Of a DNA stretch of 64,000 nt, positions 7,493 to 46,838 are shown piece by piece. Position 1 is the stretch's first letter. Each line of letters opens with the position of its first letter. The notes below the pieces were generated by a model, which was not told the origin of the DNA, searched no databases, and saw only the letters and a program-made list of their open reading frames with translations. Source of the stretch: Halanaerobiales bacterium (GTDB lineage: Bacteria; Bacillota; Halanaerobiia; Halanaerobiales; DTU029). The stretch is from NCBI GenBank assembly GCA_029981855.1, contig JARRCS010000005.1, positions 1 through 64,000 of the forward strand. Reading direction: 5' to 3'. Both the position numbers and the translations under genes were made by a program.

Positions 7493-7525
7493 AGAAAACC
7501 CCCGGTTTTCAGGGGTTTTTTACCA
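7493..7525 (-). terminator. Terminator of the SNF2 helicase gene
   Basis: On the minus strand AAAACCCC-TGAAAA-CCGGGGGTTTT forms a GC-rich hairpin followed by a T-rich tract. It overlaps the stop codon of the helicase gene. Confidence 0.75.
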
Positions 7526-8996
7526 GTTTGTCCCTCAGTTTATTAAATTCCTCTTCCAGTTGGGTATCGGTCTCCGACTCTCCAATTATCTGCATAATAT
7601 CACTCTCCAGGGTTTTGACTTCCCCGGGGTCGATAATGTCTTCCATCTCACCGATAATCTTTTCAAAAAGATTAATTTTATCATATAAGAGCTTTAGAAT
7701 CTTCTCTTCAATGGTATATCTGGTAGCTAGGTTATAGATATGAACATCTTTTGTTTGACCAAGCCGGTGAATACGTCCAATCCTCTGTTCAACCTTCATT
7801 GGATTCCAGGGTAGATCATAATTAATTATCACATTACAGAACTGTAGATTTAATCCCTGGCTGCCTGCCTCGGTGCTGATTAAAACATCCTTCTGTTTCT
7901 GAAAAATGTGTTTAATCCATTCCTTACCGCTGGAACTGAATCCACCGTTAAATAGGATGGTACTATATCCCTGTTTCTCCAGAAAACGGGCAATATAGAT
8001 CTGGGTAGCCCTGTACTCGGTAAAGATAATAACTTGTCCATCTACTTCCTTTAAAATCCTCTCTACTTCTTTCATTTTGGCATTGATCTTGATCTTCTTT
8101 GCGAGTTCATAGATCTCAAAGAGAGTGGGTGAATAGTAATCCGTATTGGCCAGGGTCTGTAACAGGGCAAAGGAACTACTGCAGATCTCCCGCTGATAGG
8201 TTAAAAGGTTAAGGATACTCAATTTTCCAGCCCGGCGGCGCCTGTATTCGGTCTTGACATATTCGGTAACCCGGTTATACAACTTCCGCTCTTCCGGTGT
8301 TAAATTTACCACAACCTGATGGATATGCCTTTGGGGAAATTCTAGACCCGTATCATCATGAGTGTTTCTGATCATAACTTTTTCCAGCTCTTCTTTTAAA
8401 TCACCGCTATTTTTAACCATATGCTTGCCGACAACATATCTACTCTTAAAATCATCCAAATCATTATATAAATCAGGATATAAAATTGATATTAAATTAT
8501 ATAATTCCTCAAGATTATTTTGAATCGGGGTTGCCGTTAATAATAAGCAGTACTTTTTCTTAAGGCTGTTAACAAACTTCCAGTTTAAGGTATTTCGATT
8601 TTTCAGGCGGTGGGCTTCATCTACTATCACCATGTCAAAGTCAATCTCTCTTAGATACTGAGCATTGTTTTCCCTTTTAGCCATATCAAGGGAGGCTATC
8701 TGATGGTCCCAGTAATCCCAGGCTAGTCCTTTACGGTTAAAGAAAATATCGGTAATTTTCAGCTTATTTACCATCTCATTCGTCCACTGAAAACCCAGTG
8801 AGGCAGGAACAAGGATTAAAAATTTCTTTACCAGGCCTTTATCCATATATTCCTTAAGAATCATACCGGCCTCAATGGTTTTACCAAGACCAACTTCATC
8901 TGCCAGTATAGCCCGGCCATCAAGTTCATCAATAACCTTTCTGACGGTGGCATATTGATGCGGTAAAAGCTCAATATCTAATTTATCAAGGGCAAT
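7509..8996 (-). CDS. SNF2-family DEAD/H helicase (RapA/YqhH-like)
   Basis: A compact SNF2/Rad54-type ATPase of about 495 residues with little outside the two RecA domains. Counting from the GTG at 9003-9005, Walker A-like DEVGLGKT is at about 36-43, motif II DEAH at about 129, TATPIQNN follows as motif III, STEAGSQGLNLQ lies in lobe 2 and QRIGRIHRLGQ is motif VI. It most resembles stand-alone bacterial helicases such as YqhH, probably remodelling RNA polymerase or DNA complexes; no nuclease or methylase neighbour suggests a defence island. The start is odd: the only canonical in-frame start (GTG, 9003-9005) is inside the AGGAGGTG ribosome binding site, and the properly spaced in-frame codon is ATT (8994-8996). 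I use the ATT but the GTG cannot be excluded. Confidence 0.82.
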   Translation of the reverse strand: MALDKLDIELLPHQYATVRKVIDELDGRAILADEVGLGKTIEAGMILKEYMDKGLVKKFLILVPASLGFQWTNEMVNKLKITDIFFNRKGLAWDYWDHQIASLDMAKRENNAQYLREIDFDMVIVDEAHRLKNRNTLNWKFVNSLKKKYCLLLTATPIQNNLEELYNLISILYPDLYNDLDDFKSRYVVGKHMVKNSGDLKEELEKVMIRNTHDDTGLEFPQRHIHQVVVNLTPEERKLYNRVTEYVKTEYRRRRAGKLSILNLLTYQREICSSSFALLQTLANTDYYSPTLFEIYELAKKIKINAKMKEVERILKEVDGQVIIFTEYRATQIYIARFLEKQGYSTILFNGGFSSSGKEWIKHIFQKQKDVLISTEAGSQGLNLQFCNVIINYDLPWNPMKVEQRIGRIHRLGQTKDVHIYNLATRYTIEEKILKLLYDKINLFEKIIGEMEDIIDPGEVKTLESDIMQIIGESETDTQLEEEFNKLRDKLVKNP

Positions 8997-10649: not shown

Positions 10650-10726
10650 CGGGCTGTGGCGCAGTTTGGTAGCGCACCTGCTTTGGGAGCAGGGGGTCCT
10701 GAGTTCAAATCTCAGCAGCCCGACCA
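10650..10726 (+). tRNA. tRNA-Pro (anticodon UGG)
   Basis: A 77-base cloverleaf with acceptor CGGGCTG/CAGCCCG, anticodon stem CCTGC/GCAGG, loop TTTGGGA giving anticodon TGG, and T-arm GAGTTCAAATCTC. CCA is encoded. Confidence 0.97.
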
Positions 10727-10738
10727 TGAAAAGAACAA

Positions 10739-10814
10739 GCCCTCATCGTCTAGGGGTCCAGGACACCAGGTTTTCATCCTGGCGGCAGGGGTTCGAATCC
10801 CCTTGAGGGTGCCA
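10739..10814 (+). tRNA. tRNA-Glu (anticodon UUC)
   Basis: A 76-base cloverleaf with acceptor GCCCTCA/TGAGGGT, anticodon stem CCAGG/CCTGG, loop TTTTCAT giving anticodon TTC, and T-loop GTTCGAATC. CCA is encoded. It follows tRNA-Pro by 12 bases. Confidence 0.96.
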
Positions 10815-10817
10815 TAT

Positions 10818-10903
10818 GGAGGGGTGCCCGAGTGGTTAAAGGGAGCAGACTGTAAATCTGCCGGCGATTGCCTACAAAGGTTCGAATCCTTTCCCCTCCA
10901 CCA
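10818..10903 (+). tRNA. tRNA-Tyr (anticodon GUA)
   Basis: An 86-base class II tRNA with acceptor GGAGGGG/CCCCTCC, anticodon stem GCAGA/TCTGC, loop CTGTAAA giving anticodon GTA, a long variable arm and T-loop GTTCGAATC. CCA is encoded. Only three bases separate it from tRNA-Glu. Confidence 0.97.
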
Positions 10904-26558: not shown

Positions 26559-26590
26559 ATTAAACCCCCCTTATAAATTCTTTAGGCATT

Positions 26591-26666
26591 AAAAAACCTT
26601 TTTACCAGCTAACTGATAAAAAGGTTGCACAAAAAATTATGCCGCCCTTACCAGCCTCACTGGACT
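26591..26666 (-). promoter_or_regulatory. PyrR-type attenuator 2 (binding loop plus terminator)
   Basis: The minus strand holds AGTCCAGTGAGGCT (26653-26666), an exact match to the PyrR binding-loop consensus ARUCCNGNGAGGYU. It is followed by a terminator with perfect 10-bp arms AACCTTTTTA / TAAAAAGGTT and a T tail (26591-26625). UMP-bound PyrR would favour the terminator and stop transcription before pyrB. Confidence 0.9.
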
Positions 26667-26737
26667 GATTTCAAGGGTAAACTATTGGCCTTTCGTATTA
26701 AATTATCGTATTAAATTTTTTAAAAATAAGGGTTAAT

Positions 26738-28911: not shown

Positions 28912-29793
28912 TTAAACAAGGTCATAACCCTTGAGGATATTTCTTAAGACCTCTCTTTCAGAATGATTAAGCTCAATCAGAGGCGGACGTAGTCCCCCAA
29001 CCTCCATCCCTATCATATTAAGCGCAGCCTTAACAGGAATAGGGTTGGTTGTAATAAATATACCTGTAAAGATAGCTCCTAGATACTTATTAAGCTCAAT
29101 GGCCCGGCTGACATTACCTTCCTTAAAGGCCCTGATCATCTCTTTGATCTCCTTGCCTACCAGATGGGACGCCACACTGACAACCCCCTGACCACCAACA
29201 GAAAGAATTGGGAGGGTCAGATTATCATCACCACTATAGACATAAAAATCATCTGGCAAGGTCCTTGTTAAATCTGCAACCTGGCCTAAATCTCCACTTG
29301 CCTCCTTAATGGCAATTATATTATCTATCTCTGCCAGTCTATTAACGGTTTTCACATCAATGTTTCTGGAGGTACGGCCAGGTACATTATAGAGCATGAT
29401 CGGCAGTGAGGTCTCAGCGGCTATCGCCTTAAAGTGCTCATAAAGCCCTGACTGAGGTGGCTTGTTATAGTAGGGCACCACTAACATCACACCATCTACA
29501 CCGATCTCTTCGGCCTTTCTTGTCATCTCAATACTTGCCGCAGTAGAGTAAGAACCAGTACCTGCTATAACGGTAGTTTTATCTCCTACTTCATCAACAA
29601 CCGCTTCTAAAATCGCTATCTTCTCCTCAGTTATCAGGGTTGGAACCTCTCCCGTAGTACCAAGGACAACCAGTCCATCTGAACCATTTTCAATCAGGTA
29701 AGATGCTAATTCCCTTGTTTTCTTAAGATCAACCCCTTTTTCCTTATCAAAGGGGGTAACCATCGCCGTAAGAACCTCGCCAAAATCTCTCAC
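28912..29793 (-). CDS. dapA: 4-Hydroxy-tetrahydrodipicolinate synthase
   Basis: A 293-residue aldolase that condenses pyruvate with aspartate semialdehyde. The Schiff-base lysine is in IAIKEASGD (about 162), the catalytic tyrosine in [10 protein letters not shown], and GTTGEVPTL binds pyruvate. The start is GTG (29791-29793) with GGAGGG seven bases upstream. It follows dapG by 14 bases. Its product feeds lysine, diaminopimelate and, via DpaAB, spore dipicolinate. Confidence 0.96.
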
Positions 29794-29807
29794 TTTTTAT
29801 CCCTCCA

Positions 29808-31022
29808 TTAATCTTCTAGTTTAAAGGCATCATGTAAGGCATTCAATGCCTCCTTTTCAAACTCTCTTTTGATCAGACATGAGATAGTGGTATGGGAATC
29901 TGTAGTCTGATAAATAGCGATATTTTTTTCAGTTAATGCCTCTACTAGCCTTGACATAACCCCGGGTCTCCCGGTCATACCTCCACCAACTACAGAAACC
30001 TTAACAAAATCATCGGCAATCTCAAAATTAAAATCATATTCCTTTAAAATACTCTCAACCTTCTCCTTGACCCTGGATTCAACTATAAAGGAGATTGCCC
30101 CCGGACGAATGTTGATAAAATCAACACTGACCCCGTGGTTGGCCAGGATTTTAAAAACAATTAGTCCGGTAGCATATTCAGCGGGTTTCTCCGGAGTAAT
30201 CTTGACAAAAACTATGTTATGGCGGCTGGTAACACCTGTAACCGGCCGGTCTCCCTTAATGCCGCGCATACCCTGATTATGAATCAGGGTACCACCACCA
30301 TTATTATTAAAAGTAGACTTAACCTTAATGGGAATCCCTTCCCTCATGGCAATTTCAGCAGCCCGGGGGTGAATAACTCTGGCTCCCTGATAGGCCAGTT
30401 CACACACCTCATTATAACTGACCCTGTCTAAGATGCGCGCATTCTCAACCATATTGGGGTCGGCGGTCATAACACCATCTACATCGGTATAGATTTCAAT
30501 ATAGAGGGCTTTGACAGCGGCAGCGATAACACTGGCAGTGGTATCACTACCTCCGCGCCCCAGGGTAGTTATCTCTCCTTCTGTACTCATTCCCTGAAAA
30601 CCGGCAACTACGGGCACCTTCCCCTCATCCATTATTTTCAGAATACGTTTCGGGTCTACCCTGGTAATCTCCGACTCTCCAAAATTGTTATCGGTAATAA
30701 TACCAGCCTGAGCGCCCGTCAGGGCAACGGCCTTGATACCGGCCTTCTTTAAGGTCTGAACCATAATAACCGAGGAGATGATTTCCCCACAGGACATCAA
30801 CAGGTCCTTTTCCCGGGGCTGAATATCAATATGAATATCCTCCGCCATTTTAATTAATGTATCGGTAGCATAAGGTTTACCGGCCCTCCCCATTGCAGAT
30901 ACAACCACCACCGGGGAATACCCGGATTCTATTGCTGAATTAATATGCCGGGCCGCAAGCCCCCTTTTTTCAGCCGTATCCAGAGAAGTTCCGCCGAACT
31001 TCTGCACTATAATTTTCATCAT
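29808..31022 (-). CDS. dapG: Aspartate kinase (DapG type)
   Basis: A 404-residue aspartokinase that opens the aspartate pathway. N-terminal KFGGTSL, VVSAMGRAGKPYATDTL and GRGGSDTTASVIAAAV mark the kinase domain. Two ACT domains form the C-terminal third, the usual site of feedback control. Size and the asd-dapG-dapA order match Bacillus DapG, the DAP-sensitive isoenzyme. GGGAGG precedes two adjacent ATG codons; either could be used. Confidence 0.95.
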   Translation of the reverse strand: MMKIIVQKFGGTSLDTAEKRGLAARHINSAIESGYSPVVVVSAMGRAGKPYATDTLIKMAEDIHIDIQPREKDLLMSCGEIISSVIMVQTLKKAGIKAVALTGAQAGIITDNNFGESEITRVDPKRILKIMDEGKVPVVAGFQGMSTEGEITTLGRGGSDTTASVIAAAVKALYIEIYTDVDGVMTADPNMVENARILDRVSYNEVCELAYQGARVIHPRAAEIAMREGIPIKVKSTFNNNGGGTLIHNQGMRGIKGDRPVTGVTSRHNIVFVKITPEKPAEYATGLIVFKILANHGVSVDFINIRPGAISFIVESRVKEKVESILKEYDFNFEIADDFVKVSVVGGGMTGRPGVMSRLVEALTEKNIAIYQTTDSHTTISCLIKREFEKEALNALHDAFKLED

Positions 31023-31032
31023 TAACCTCCCG

Positions 31033-32037
31033 TCAGGCTTGAATCAGTCTTTCTGCTATCTGTACGGCATTTAGTGCAGCCCCCTTACGAAGATTATTGC
31101 CTACAATCCACATACTGATACCCTTCTCAACGGAGATATCTTCCCTTAACCGTCCAACAAGAACATCGTCATCTTCTTCAGACATCAGGGCTAAAGGATA
31201 AAGTAGGTTCTCGGGGTCATCAACAACCTTTACCCCTTCTGCCGCAGTTAAAAGCTCCTTTACCCTGTCAACACTAATTTTCTTTACGGTCTCTATATTA
31301 ACCGCTTCGGAATGACCGTAAAAAACAGGAACCCTGGCTGCGGTCGCCGTTACTGCTATCTTCGGATCATGGAGAATCTTTCTTGTCTCCCTAACCATCT
31401 TCATCTCTTCCAAAGTATAGCCGTTTTCTTCAAAGACATCGATATGGGGCAGTACATTGAAAGCGATCTGGTAAGGATAAACACTGGCCTCAAGTTTCTC
31501 GCCTTTAAGATATTGTTCTACCTGTTTATTTAATTCATCAATAGCCTTCTTTCCCGTTCCGGAAACAGCCTGATAGGTACTGACGATAATCCGCTTTATT
31601 CCTACCTCATCATAGATAGGCTTTAAAGCAACAACCATCTGAATGGTTGAACAGTTGGGATTAGCAATAATTCCCTGATGATCAAGGATATCTTCGGGGT
31701 TGATTTCAGGAACGACCAGCGGCACATTATCTTCCATTCTGAAGGCATTACTATTATCAATAACGATAGCACCCTCTTTGACCGCCATCGGCGCTATCTC
31801 CCGACTGGGGCCACTACCTGCACTAAATAACGCTATATCTATATTATGAAAGACACCGGGTTTTGTTACTTCAACTACCAGTTTTTCTCCTTTAAAACTA
31901 ATCTCAGTCCCGGCTGAGCGCTCGGTAGCTAAAAGCCTTAAATTCTTAACCGGAAAATCCCTTTCTGCAAGCACCTTTACCATCTCACGACCTACAGCCC
32001 CAGAAGCACCTACAACTGCTACATTATAACTACTCAA
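31033..32037 (-). CDS. asd: Aspartate-semialdehyde dehydrogenase
   Basis: A 334-residue NADP enzyme reducing aspartyl phosphate to aspartate semialdehyde. It has GASGAVGREMV at the N-terminus, the catalytic cysteine in NPNCSTIQMV (about 128) and a typical dimerisation domain. The start is TTG (32035-32037), six bases after GGGAG. That Shine-Dalgarno is the 3' arm of a long-range stem in the leader, so translation may be controlled by RNA structure. dapG follows by 10 bases. Confidence 0.95.
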   Translation of the reverse strand: MSSYNVAVVGASGAVGREMVKVLAERDFPVKNLRLLATERSAGTEISFKGEKLVVEVTKPGVFHNIDIALFSAGSGPSREIAPMAVKEGAIVIDNSNAFRMEDNVPLVVPEINPEDILDHQGIIANPNCSTIQMVVALKPIYDEVGIKRIIVSTYQAVSGTGKKAIDELNKQVEQYLKGEKLEASVYPYQIAFNVLPHIDVFEENGYTLEEMKMVRETRKILHDPKIAVTATAARVPVFYGHSEAVNIETVKKISVDRVKELLTAAEGVKVVDDPENLLYPLALMSEEDDDVLVGRLREDISVEKGISMWIVGNNLRKGAALNAVQIAERLIQA

Positions 32038-32324: not shown

Positions 32325-32918
32325 TTAAATTCCCCTGTATTCTATTAAAACCGGCTGGATCTGTTTGAATTCCAGGGCATATTCGGCCGCATCTTTAATC
32401 AAATCAAATCTAGAGATTAGAGAATTTTTCTTTCCCGTTGGATTATCCTGACCAAAGGGAACAAAGAAAATATTTTTAGTATTAAGTAAAATACCTAAAT
32501 TTTTAGCATTAAGTCCGAGGCCATCATTGGTGGCAATGGCAAGTAAAACCGGTCGGTCATTTCTGAGATGGGCCTTGGCAGCCATAACAACAGTCTCATC
32601 GGTAATTGCATTGGCTAGTTTAGCTAATGTATTTCCCGTACAGGGGGCGATAATTAATAAATCCAGTAACTTACCGGGACCAATCGGCTCTGCCTTAACA
32701 ATAGAATCTATTATTGGTTTCTGGGTTATCTCCAGTATTTCCTTTAACCATTTACTTGACGGTCCAAATTTTGTATCCCGGGTTAAGATTGCATCAGATA
32801 TTATCGGAGTAACATCTGCCCCGGTTTCAACAATCTCCTTTAGTACGGGGAGCGTTTTTTCCAGAGTGCAGTGGGAACCGGTAATCGCAAACCCTATCCT
32901 CTTATCCCTCAAATCCAT
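32325..32918 (-). CDS. dpaB: Dipicolinate synthase subunit B
   Basis: A 197-residue flavoprotein-like subunit (SpoVFB) that, with DpaA, oxidises dihydrodipicolinate to dipicolinic acid in the mother cell. The phosphopantothenoylcysteine-decarboxylase-like fold shows GFAITGSHCTLEK, LLIIAPCTGNTLAKLANAITD and GLGLNAKN. Start ATG 32916-32918 was chosen for GGAGGTG six bases upstream; an in-frame GTG three codons earlier lies inside that site. It follows dpaA by about 19 bases. Its presence implies the organism can, or recently could, sporulate. Confidence 0.95.
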   Translation of the reverse strand: MDLRDKRIGFAITGSHCTLEKTLPVLKEIVETGADVTPIISDAILTRDTKFGPSSKWLKEILEITQKPIIDSIVKAEPIGPGKLLDLLIIAPCTGNTLAKLANAITDETVVMAAKAHLRNDRPVLLAIATNDGLGLNAKNLGILLNTKNIFFVPFGQDNPTGKKNSLISRFDLIKDAAEYALEFKQIQPVLIEYRGI

Positions 32919-32937: not shown

Positions 32938-33801
32938 TTAGCCCGTGACCTTTAACAGGTCAGGTATGACTTCAGCCAGAATTTCTCCGGCGGTCCGGGG
33001 AGCAACCTTTCCCGGCAGACCAAGAGCTAATTGAGCATTAATTCCCAGCTCTTTAGCGGCTGCAAAATCCGTTCCCCCGGGTGATGAAGCCAGGTCGACA
33101 ATTAACGCATCTCTCTTCAATAGAGAGATATACTCCCGGGAAAGGATCAAGGCAGGAACAGTATTAAACAGGATATTCATCTCCGGCAGGTAGTCTTTTA
33201 GTTTATCATATGTAATCATCTTGATTCCCAGGTCCTTACCTCTGGCAATAGCAGCCCTGTCTCTCGTAACAGCATAGGAGTCTGCTCCCAGTAACCTTAA
33301 ACGCCAGGCCAGGGTTAGTCCTACCTTGCCCAGACCAAGCACAAGGGTTTTACTCCCGAAGATAGTATAGTCTGTCTCTTCGATGGCGATCTTAATTGCC
33401 CCTTCAGCTGTAGGAATGGCATTGAGAATTGCTACCTCATCCAGGTGGGCCAGTTCAACATATTTGATCCCTTTTGTTTCCATCATCCTCTTTAAAAATG
33501 GCCGGGCAATCCCGATTACAAATAGGGTATCCCGGGAAAATAGATTAAAGAAATCTTCATCTAGCCTTACCTTTTTATCGATAAAGGTAGCTTTCAAATA
33601 CCCCTCCTCATCAGTTCCGGACATAGGAGCAATAACCATATCTGCACATTTAACAACCTGCTCAATCTCGTCAAAATAGGTTATCCAGGGTTCTTCCTTC
33701 TCCGGAGATTTTTTTAGTACCCTGAGATTAAAGCCCTTACTGGCCAGAAGACTGATCAAGACCTCTTCCCTTTTATCTCCACCTATAATTCCAATCTCGA
33801 T
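32938..33801 (-). CDS. dpaA: Dipicolinate synthase subunit A, probably non-ATG start
   Basis: A 287-residue Rossmann protein (SpoVFA). From the first in-frame ATG (33759) the protein would lack its N-terminal strand. Translating upstream gives EIGIIGGDKREEVLISLLAS, which aligns with the conserved opening of SpoVFA (KIAVIGGD). No ATG, GTG or TTG occurs in frame between the dapB stop and this stretch. An ATC codon (33799-33801) lies exactly 8 bases after GGGAGG, and an ATT comes two codons later. Other motifs: VLGLGKVGLTLAWRL (second nucleotide fold), FNTVPALIL and LASSPGGTDFAAA. I infer initiation at ATC; a sequencing error in the start codon is the alternative. Confidence 0.88.
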   Translation of the reverse strand: MEIGIIGGDKREEVLISLLASKGFNLRVLKKSPEKEEPWITYFDEIEQVVKCADMVIAPMSGTDEEGYLKATFIDKKVRLDEDFFNLFSRDTLFVIGIARPFLKRMMETKGIKYVELAHLDEVAILNAIPTAEGAIKIAIEETDYTIFGSKTLVLGLGKVGLTLAWRLRLLGADSYAVTRDRAAIARGKDLGIKMITYDKLKDYLPEMNILFNTVPALILSREYISLLKRDALIVDLASSPGGTDFAAAKELGINAQLALGLPGKVAPRTAGEILAEVIPDLLKVTG

Positions 33802-33834
33802 CGGAAATTCCTCCCTTCCAAAAAGGATACAATA

Positions 33835-33862
33835 TACTATATGTAAAAAGGTTAAAGAAGGT
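33835..33862 (-). promoter_or_regulatory. Sigma-K-like promoter for dpaAB
   Basis: The minus strand has ACC (33860-33862), 16 bases, then CATATAGTA (33835-33843). This fits the mother-cell sigma-K pattern AC-N16-CATANNNTA. It lies in the dapB-dpaA gap, about 34 bases before the inferred dpaA start codon. In Bacillus the dipicolinate synthase operon is transcribed by sigma-K. Confidence 0.6.
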
Positions 33863-33887: not shown

Positions 33888-34688
33888 TTAATCCATTATC
33901 TTCTCGAGACCGTAGACAAGCCCCCTAATCTCCGAAATCTTCTTTAAAGCAAGTCTAACCCCGGGCATAAAAGACTTTCTGTTATAGGAATCATGCCTGA
34001 TTGTCAGGCTCTGCCCTTCAGCCCCGAAGATAACTTCCTGGTGAGCTACCAGACCGGGCAAACGCACACTATGAATTCTGATACCATCGAGTTCCCCACC
34101 CCTGGCACCAGTTAGTTTTTCAATCTCCTCTATCCCCTCTTCAGAACCGCTCTGATCCCTCTCAGCATTTATCAATTCGGCTGTCTTGAGAGCCGTTCCA
34201 GAAGGGGCATCTATCTTCTGGTTATGATGGAGTTCAATAATCTCTACATCCTTGAAATGCCTGGCCGTCTCAGCCGCAAAACGCATCATCAATACAGCCC
34301 CGATAGCAAAATTGGGTACAATTAAGGCCCTGGTATCATTTTCTTTTGTCCATTGATCAATCTTTTTTAAATCAATCTCGGTAATACCGGTAGTGCCAAC
34401 AATCATATCTACCCCGTGAGATAGGCCGGTCTCAATATTGTCCATTACCACCCTGGGGCTGGTAAAATCAATAATGACATCGGGCTCGGTCGATTTAATC
34501 GCCTCCGCTAGATCACCATAAATTAAAACCTCAGGGCCTTCCAGGGCCAGCAATTTTAAAATATCTTCTCCAGTATGTTTAAGATCACAGGCTCCAACTA
34601 AAAGCTCATCTGTTTCATTGACTACAGTTTTAACTACCTCCTGTCCCATACGTCCGCAAGCACCGTTAACTAAGACCCTTTTATTCAT
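33888..34688 (-). CDS. dapB: 4-Hydroxy-tetrahydrodipicolinate reductase
   Basis: A 266-residue NAD(P)H reductase of the DAP pathway. It has GACGRMGQEVV at the N-terminus, DFTSPRVV, VGTTG, the catalytic ELHHNQKIDAPSGTA and a C-terminal RHDSYNRKSFMPGV. AAGGAG lies before the ATG. It heads the block; dpaA follows after 86 bases that appear to hold a separate sporulation promoter. Confidence 0.96.
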   Translation of the reverse strand: MNKRVLVNGACGRMGQEVVKTVVNETDELLVGACDLKHTGEDILKLLALEGPEVLIYGDLAEAIKSTEPDVIIDFTSPRVVMDNIETGLSHGVDMIVGTTGITEIDLKKIDQWTKENDTRALIVPNFAIGAVLMMRFAAETARHFKDVEIIELHHNQKIDAPSGTALKTAELINAERDQSGSEEGIEEIEKLTGARGGELDGIRIHSVRLPGLVAHQEVIFGAEGQSLTIRHDSYNRKSFMPGVRLALKKISEIRGLVYGLEKIMD

Positions 34689-46581: not shown

Positions 46582-46599
46582 TAAATAAATCAAGTAAAT

Positions 46600-46838
46600 T
46601 CTATGAAAGGGAGAGTAGGTTATATTTACCGTTATAGCGAACCGGGGATGGTGAAAGCCCGGTACGTAAATATATCTGAAGCGCACCCTGGAGAAGCTTG
46701 CCGAAATCCATAAAGTAGGACAGGCCGTTTTAATCCCTGCGTTAAAGGGGAAGAGTGGGTATTGGCCGAACCAGTACCAATAAGAGTGGCAACACGGGAA
46801 TTAACTCTCGTCTCTAATCAGGGATGAGGGTTTTTTTA
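46600..46838 (+). promoter_or_regulatory. T-box leader, arginine-specific
   Basis: Stem I runs from GAGAGTAGG (46611) through an apical GGGGATGGTGAAAGCCC. The specifier region TGAAG-CGC-ACCCTGGAG places the Arg codon CGC at 46682-46684. The T-box sequence AAGAGTGGCAACACGGG (46782-46798) is followed by a terminator, CTCGTCTCT / AGGGATGAG then seven T (46807-46838). Uncharged tRNA-Arg should pair with both sites and allow transcription of argS. Confidence 0.93.

Follow-up and report, generated by a model that had tools for sequence, protein, structure and literature searches.

Conserved weak start codons are predicted for the dipicolinate synthase gene dpaA in Halanaerobiales

The dpaA gene of the considered Halanaerobiales genome is predicted to start at an ATC codon placed at the proper distance from a very strong Shine-Dalgarno box. 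Comparison of genomes shows that the position of this start, the lack of canonical codons that could replace it and the use of weak codons are conserved in three families of the order. Dipicolinic acid is the spore-hardening compound, DpaA is one half of its synthase, and the Halanaerobiales considered here are salt-loving spore-formers. The window is the entire analysed stretch of 64,000 nucleotides. The elements of the start site are as follows.

32938..33801, minus strand: dpaA (spoVFA), dipicolinate synthase subunit A, 287 codons counted from ATC (NF006162, PF16924).
33799..33801, minus strand: proposed ATC start codon of dpaA; no in-frame canonical alternative, weak codons at this site in nine genomes of the order.
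33810..33815, minus strand: Shine-Dalgarno core GGGAGG within GGAAGGGAGG, 8 nt 5' of ATC, pairing energy -15.7 kcal/mol.
33888..34688, minus strand: dapB, the 5' neighbour of dpaA, with a canonical ATG start that was compared across the order (TIGR00036).

The first-pass annotation had placed ATC exactly 8 nt after GGGAGG and had noted the lack of in-frame ATG, GTG or TTG between the dapB stop and the strand EIGIIGGD. Both statements were borne out, the former by reading the minus strand, where the spacer is AATTTCCG, and the latter by a frame scan. The codons following ATC are GAG ATT GGA ATT ATA GGT GGA GAT, and the opening of the gene reads IEIGIIGGD. The dapB gene ends upstream of dpaA with TAA at 33890-33888. 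The dpaA frame remains open for 41 codons 5' of ATC, up to a stop codon at 33927-33925 inside dapB, and from this stop to the conserved first strand it contains no ATG, GTG or TTG. The product matches the profiles NF006162 (338 bits, cut-off 261) and PF16924 (DpaA_N, 90 bits), and scores 280.8 bits against TIGR02853, under the cut-off of 319.65. Among non-canonical start candidates in a 426 kb sample of the genome (321 genes), the dpaA site has the strongest Shine-Dalgarno pairing.

The first canonical codon in the dpaA frame is TTG at 33759, corresponding to residue 15. It is preceded by a moderate Shine-Dalgarno box (-5.9) and is picked by ordinary ORF calling. Translation from this codon would yield DpaA without its first strand and without the GGDxRE motif, which is present here and invariant in the alignment. 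Moreover, genomes G001 and G005 have no canonical codon downstream of the Shine-Dalgarno box before residue 59, and the stretch 5' of TTG is conserved as protein: in the first 14 codons, differences at codon positions 1, 2 and 3 are 0.24, 0.12 and 0.48, a pattern of protein-level constraint. A downstream start is thus very improbable.

The dpaA gene was found in 10 of the 38 genomes of the order that were searched. An alignment of DpaA N-termini from relatives, proposed in the first-pass annotation, shows the weak codon retained in nine of these ten genes, spanning seven genera and three families and including Halothermothrix orenii. The codon is ATC in the present genome, ATT in four, ATA in two and CTG in two. 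In all nine it lies 7-8 nt past a strong Shine-Dalgarno box, and no canonical codon with its own Shine-Dalgarno box occurs 5' of it. In contig L032 of a Halanaerobiales metagenome-assembled genome, the leader, with ATT, is that of G004, and the two were counted together. The tenth dpaA (G017) is very divergent and has either TTG adjoining the strand or ATG eight codons 5' without a Shine-Dalgarno box.

That the upstream frame is open for 41 codons in this genome could point to a sequencing or assembly error, or to a start further 5' in a different frame, followed by a frameshift. However, the site recurs in nine separate genomes, two of them single-contig, with different weak codons at one position and a constant spacing of 7-8 nt. 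In G001, which is a single contig, and in G010 there is a stop just five codons 5' of the weak codon (ATT in G001). G001 is the sharpest case, as its frame has no canonical codon from this stop up to residue 59. Such an artefact is hardly conceivable.

The flanking genes do not share the weak start. The part of the locus 3' of dpaA is as follows.

32325..32918, minus strand: dpaB (spoVFB), dipicolinate synthase subunit B; best start ATG 32918 with a strong Shine-Dalgarno box (TIGR02852).
28912..32037, minus strand: lysine-pathway genes asd, aspartokinase (dapG-like) and dapA, 3' of dpaB.

The assignment of dpaB, directly 3' of dpaA, is based on TIGR02852 and NF006161 scores above the cut-offs and agrees with synteny; its start in the ORF list is GTG 32927, versus the preferred ATG 32918. 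The asd gene served as a homology query, whereas aspartokinase and dapA were named from translations and gene order. In genomes with weak-start dpaA, both dapB and dpaB start with ATG, TTG or GTG. Therefore the weak start belongs to dpaA and not to the locus or the assemblies. The first-pass annotation had also stressed that dpaA is embedded in a lysine-pathway block. Indeed, dapB adjoins it, but there is nothing special in this arrangement: dapB is found 5' of dpaA in most Bacillota examined, many of which have dpaA with an ATG start, and a special dapB-dpaA location can be ruled out.

In this genome the interval from dapB to dpaA contains no called terminator, only a weak 5-pair hairpin 3' of dapB. 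In H. orenii (G012, L008) a terminator-like hairpin AAAGGCCGTAACAGGCCTTTTTATTTTT, absent here, was read by eye 3' of dapB; thus genera may differ in how far read-through has to be blunted. Two further candidates for regulation in the leader were rejected. The dpaA leader folds no better than shuffled sequences (z +0.43), arguing against RNA structure masking the ribosome-binding site. A riboswitch was rejected too, as all Rfam matches in the window lie elsewhere:

46594-46818, plus strand: T-box leader.
26589-26680, minus strand: PyrR binding site.
10650-10900, plus strand: three tRNA genes.

The spoVFA-spoVFB operon of other Bacillota has in common with this locus the gene pair itself, asd downstream and the sigma-K-type promoter. 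It differs in the start: in the other Bacillota dpaA loci read, ATG, GTG or TTG is situated 2-8 codons 5' of the weak-codon position, and Halanaerobiales alone were seen to have the weak start. The DpaA proteins of other Bacillota commonly have about seven extra residues before the first strand, which were lost in the order. In the DpaA tree, the order is split from canonical-start relatives by one branch (support 99/94). Within it the weak codon changed at least four times, never to ATG or GTG. The median Shine-Dalgarno pairing is -14.7 kcal/mol for weak-start dpaA versus -11.9 kcal/mol for canonical dpaA starts, with p 0.0003 that is only a guide, since related sequences were counted as independent.

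These observations bear on the possibility that the AUC start is real, but has no regulatory role: the ancestral ATG was lost, a strong Shine-Dalgarno box happened to precede an internal isoleucine or valine codon, and weak initiation is tolerated, as a modest amount of DpaA suffices. Indeed, the weak codon aligns with an internal Ile/Val codon of relatives with the longer N-terminus, and such codons give the best score in about 1% of the genes sampled, which is partly noise. On the other hand, a single substitution would turn ATC, ATT or ATA into ATG, but although the codon changed at least four times, ATG is found in none of the nine genomes; the Shine-Dalgarno box of dpaA is strengthened as if in compensation; and the flanking genes keep canonical starts. 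That the codon did not revert to ATG and that the Shine-Dalgarno box seems to compensate for it argue for selection, without proving regulation. We regard a start without regulatory role as the main rival reading, possible though less likely than the mechanism proposed below.

The promoter region contains the following element.

33835..33862, minus strand: sigma-K-type promoter (TGC)ACC-N16-CATATAGTA; consensus match, sigK present in the genome.

The ACC is at 33862-33860, followed by 16 nt and CATATAGTA at 33843-33835. The sigma-K type proposed for it initially is supported by shuffling, by conservation across loci and by the presence of sigK. When the upstream region was shuffled 500 times (first-order), a match of this quality was never reached; for three relatives with CATATACTG, the shuffle test alone gives only about 0.1. 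In most Bacillota loci examined, dpaA is preceded by a GCAC(C/T)-like element and, after a spacer of 15-17 nt, by CATATANT(A/G). Among 96 other loci, 37 match all six fixed -10 positions and have a good -35 element, and most of the remaining ones carry CATATANTG. Of the 38 genomes of the order, those with a sigK match above the curated cut-off are precisely the ten that have dpaA. The promoter also precedes dpaA genes with ATG starts. As judged from these comparisons, it is well supported, but ancestral and ordinary. The -10 region is situated within an imperfect inverted repeat (A/T)TACATATAgTATATTGTAT (positions 33825-33845 of the window, minus strand), whose right arm TGTAT recurs just after the -10 element in most genomes of family f1 and in H. 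orenii. This repeat is a possible candidate operator.

The mechanism that we consider rather probable is as follows. The dpaA transcript would start at its own predicted sigma-K promoter and have a short leader of about 25 nt. The start at AUC (33801-33799) would be weak, opposed by IF3 and offset by the Shine-Dalgarno box, with DpaA limiting and sigma-K providing the timing and the cell type. The initiator tRNA should decode AUC as methionine, giving MEIGIIGGD. By analogy with infC, sigR and the S. aureus genes considered below, initiation at AUC, AUU, AUA or CUG would be several-fold below that at AUG and opposed by IF3, so that initiation of DpaA is probably IF3-sensitive, and the extra-strong Shine-Dalgarno box would make the weak codon workable. 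As dpaB has a canonical start with a strong Shine-Dalgarno box, DpaA is expected to be the limiting one of the two subunits. Stray read-through from dapB in growing cells would then yield little DpaA. The promoter by itself would confine transcription to the mother cell late in sporulation, and the start codon would set the dose of DpaA and its sensitivity to IF3. Hence the suggestion that promoter and codon together restrict the synthase to the right cell and time would hold for the promoter, but not for the codon, which alone gives neither.

Weak starts elsewhere in the genomes were assessed with a start-site score made for this analysis, the best start being counted at a margin of at least 1, in samples of 826 kb (this genome), 800 kb (H. 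orenii), 400 kb and 400 kb. In this genome, ATT, ATC, ATA or CTG is the best start in 9 of 680 genes (1 to 4 for control codon sets), and in H. orenii in 8 of 539 (4 to 5 for controls). The respective values for two genomes outside the order are 3 of 372 (0 to 1) and 9 of 377 (4 to 5). Thus weak starts are a small minority of about 1%, in part noise, and nothing indicates that start-codon choice is relaxed in general.

The infC gene, the textbook case of a non-canonical start, served as a positive control and has ATC across the order shortly after AGGAGGTG or GGAGGTG. Two other genes with conserved weak starts were identified.

L190:15718-16587 (also L271), minus strand: NAD kinase gene nadK, ATT start.
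7511-8996 of the window, minus strand: SNF2-like helicase, 495 codons, apparent ATT start 6 nt after GAGGAGGTG.

The ATT start of nadK is conserved in family f1 and H. orenii, and most members of f3 have ATG; in some genomes, ATG or TTG three codons 5' is a possible start. Since the infC ATC and the nadK ATT occur in the order in non-sporulating members as well, a sporulation-only reason for weak starts is insufficient. Similarly, as nadK keeps ATT having no role in sporulation, the dpaA codon may have no specific role in the control of sporulation. The helicase starts with ATT or ATA in six genomes (this one, G001, G003, G004, G006 and H. orenii) and with ATG in G017. The search of the order revealed it in nine of the ten genomes that carry dpaA and sigK and in no others, which suggests a sporulation-linked gene. 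It is conceivable, although rather doubtful, that dpaA and the helicase belong to an IF3-gated set in sporulating Halanaerobiales, whose weak starts would tie sporulation output to the state of the translation machinery. A further best start at ATT, after AAAGGAGGTG, was observed in a gene for a DagR-like sigma-54 activator with PRD domains (L153:11152-13929, minus strand), where an in-frame GTG 9 nt upstream is an alternative.

To our knowledge, few bacterial genes have conserved non-canonical start codons. Having no usable ATG, GTG or TTG and a weak codon at the Shine-Dalgarno spacing, dpaA is, by sequence comparison, a probable member of this already known class. With infC, encoding IF3 and starting with AUU, AUC or AUA, it shares the strong Shine-Dalgarno box, the spacing of 7-8 nt and conservation of the weak codon across the order. 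However, infC regulates its own repressor through IF3 autoregulation, whereas no feedback is known for dpaA, whose product is an enzyme of sporulation.

In Streptomyces, repression of the GTC start of sigR by IF3 was shown experimentally (PMC5472188). Like dpaA, sigR has a conserved non-canonical codon and an extensive ribosome-binding site (AGGAGGTG in sigR), and the output of two partner proteins from one operon is uneven, as would be the case for dpaA. The gene and the codon are different, and control by IF3, experimental for sigR, is predicted for dpaA. In S. aureus, cvfC1 (AUU), ccpN (AUA) and citZ (AUA) yield about 10-30% of the AUG output, and the selection of non-canonical starts is predicted to be guided by extended Shine-Dalgarno boxes (PMC13009471). 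These genes resemble dpaA in the AUN start with an extended Shine-Dalgarno box, conserved for cvfC1 and ccpN. Their starts were mapped by ribosome profiling and have no link to sporulation, whereas the dpaA start is predicted from sequence comparison. Finally, the inefficient AUU start of E. coli pcnB limits expression, according to Binns and Masters (2002) as cited in PMC13009471; pcnB is unrelated to dpaA, and the limitation is of the kind proposed here.

No report linking dipicolinate synthase with its start codon, or describing a conserved non-canonical start of a sporulation enzyme, was found in the open-access literature searched. The combination of a weak codon with a very strong ribosome-binding site, apparent for dpaA, is a rarely documented translational brake, and infC, dpaA, nadK and the SNF2-like helicase make a short list of weak-start genes in one order. 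If the start is confirmed, gene-calling rules limited to ATG, GTG and TTG truncate DpaA across the order. It would also predict an unequal supply of DpaA and DpaB, and would mean that in these bacteria dipicolinate synthesis is subject to translational control of dose above the control by sigma-K.
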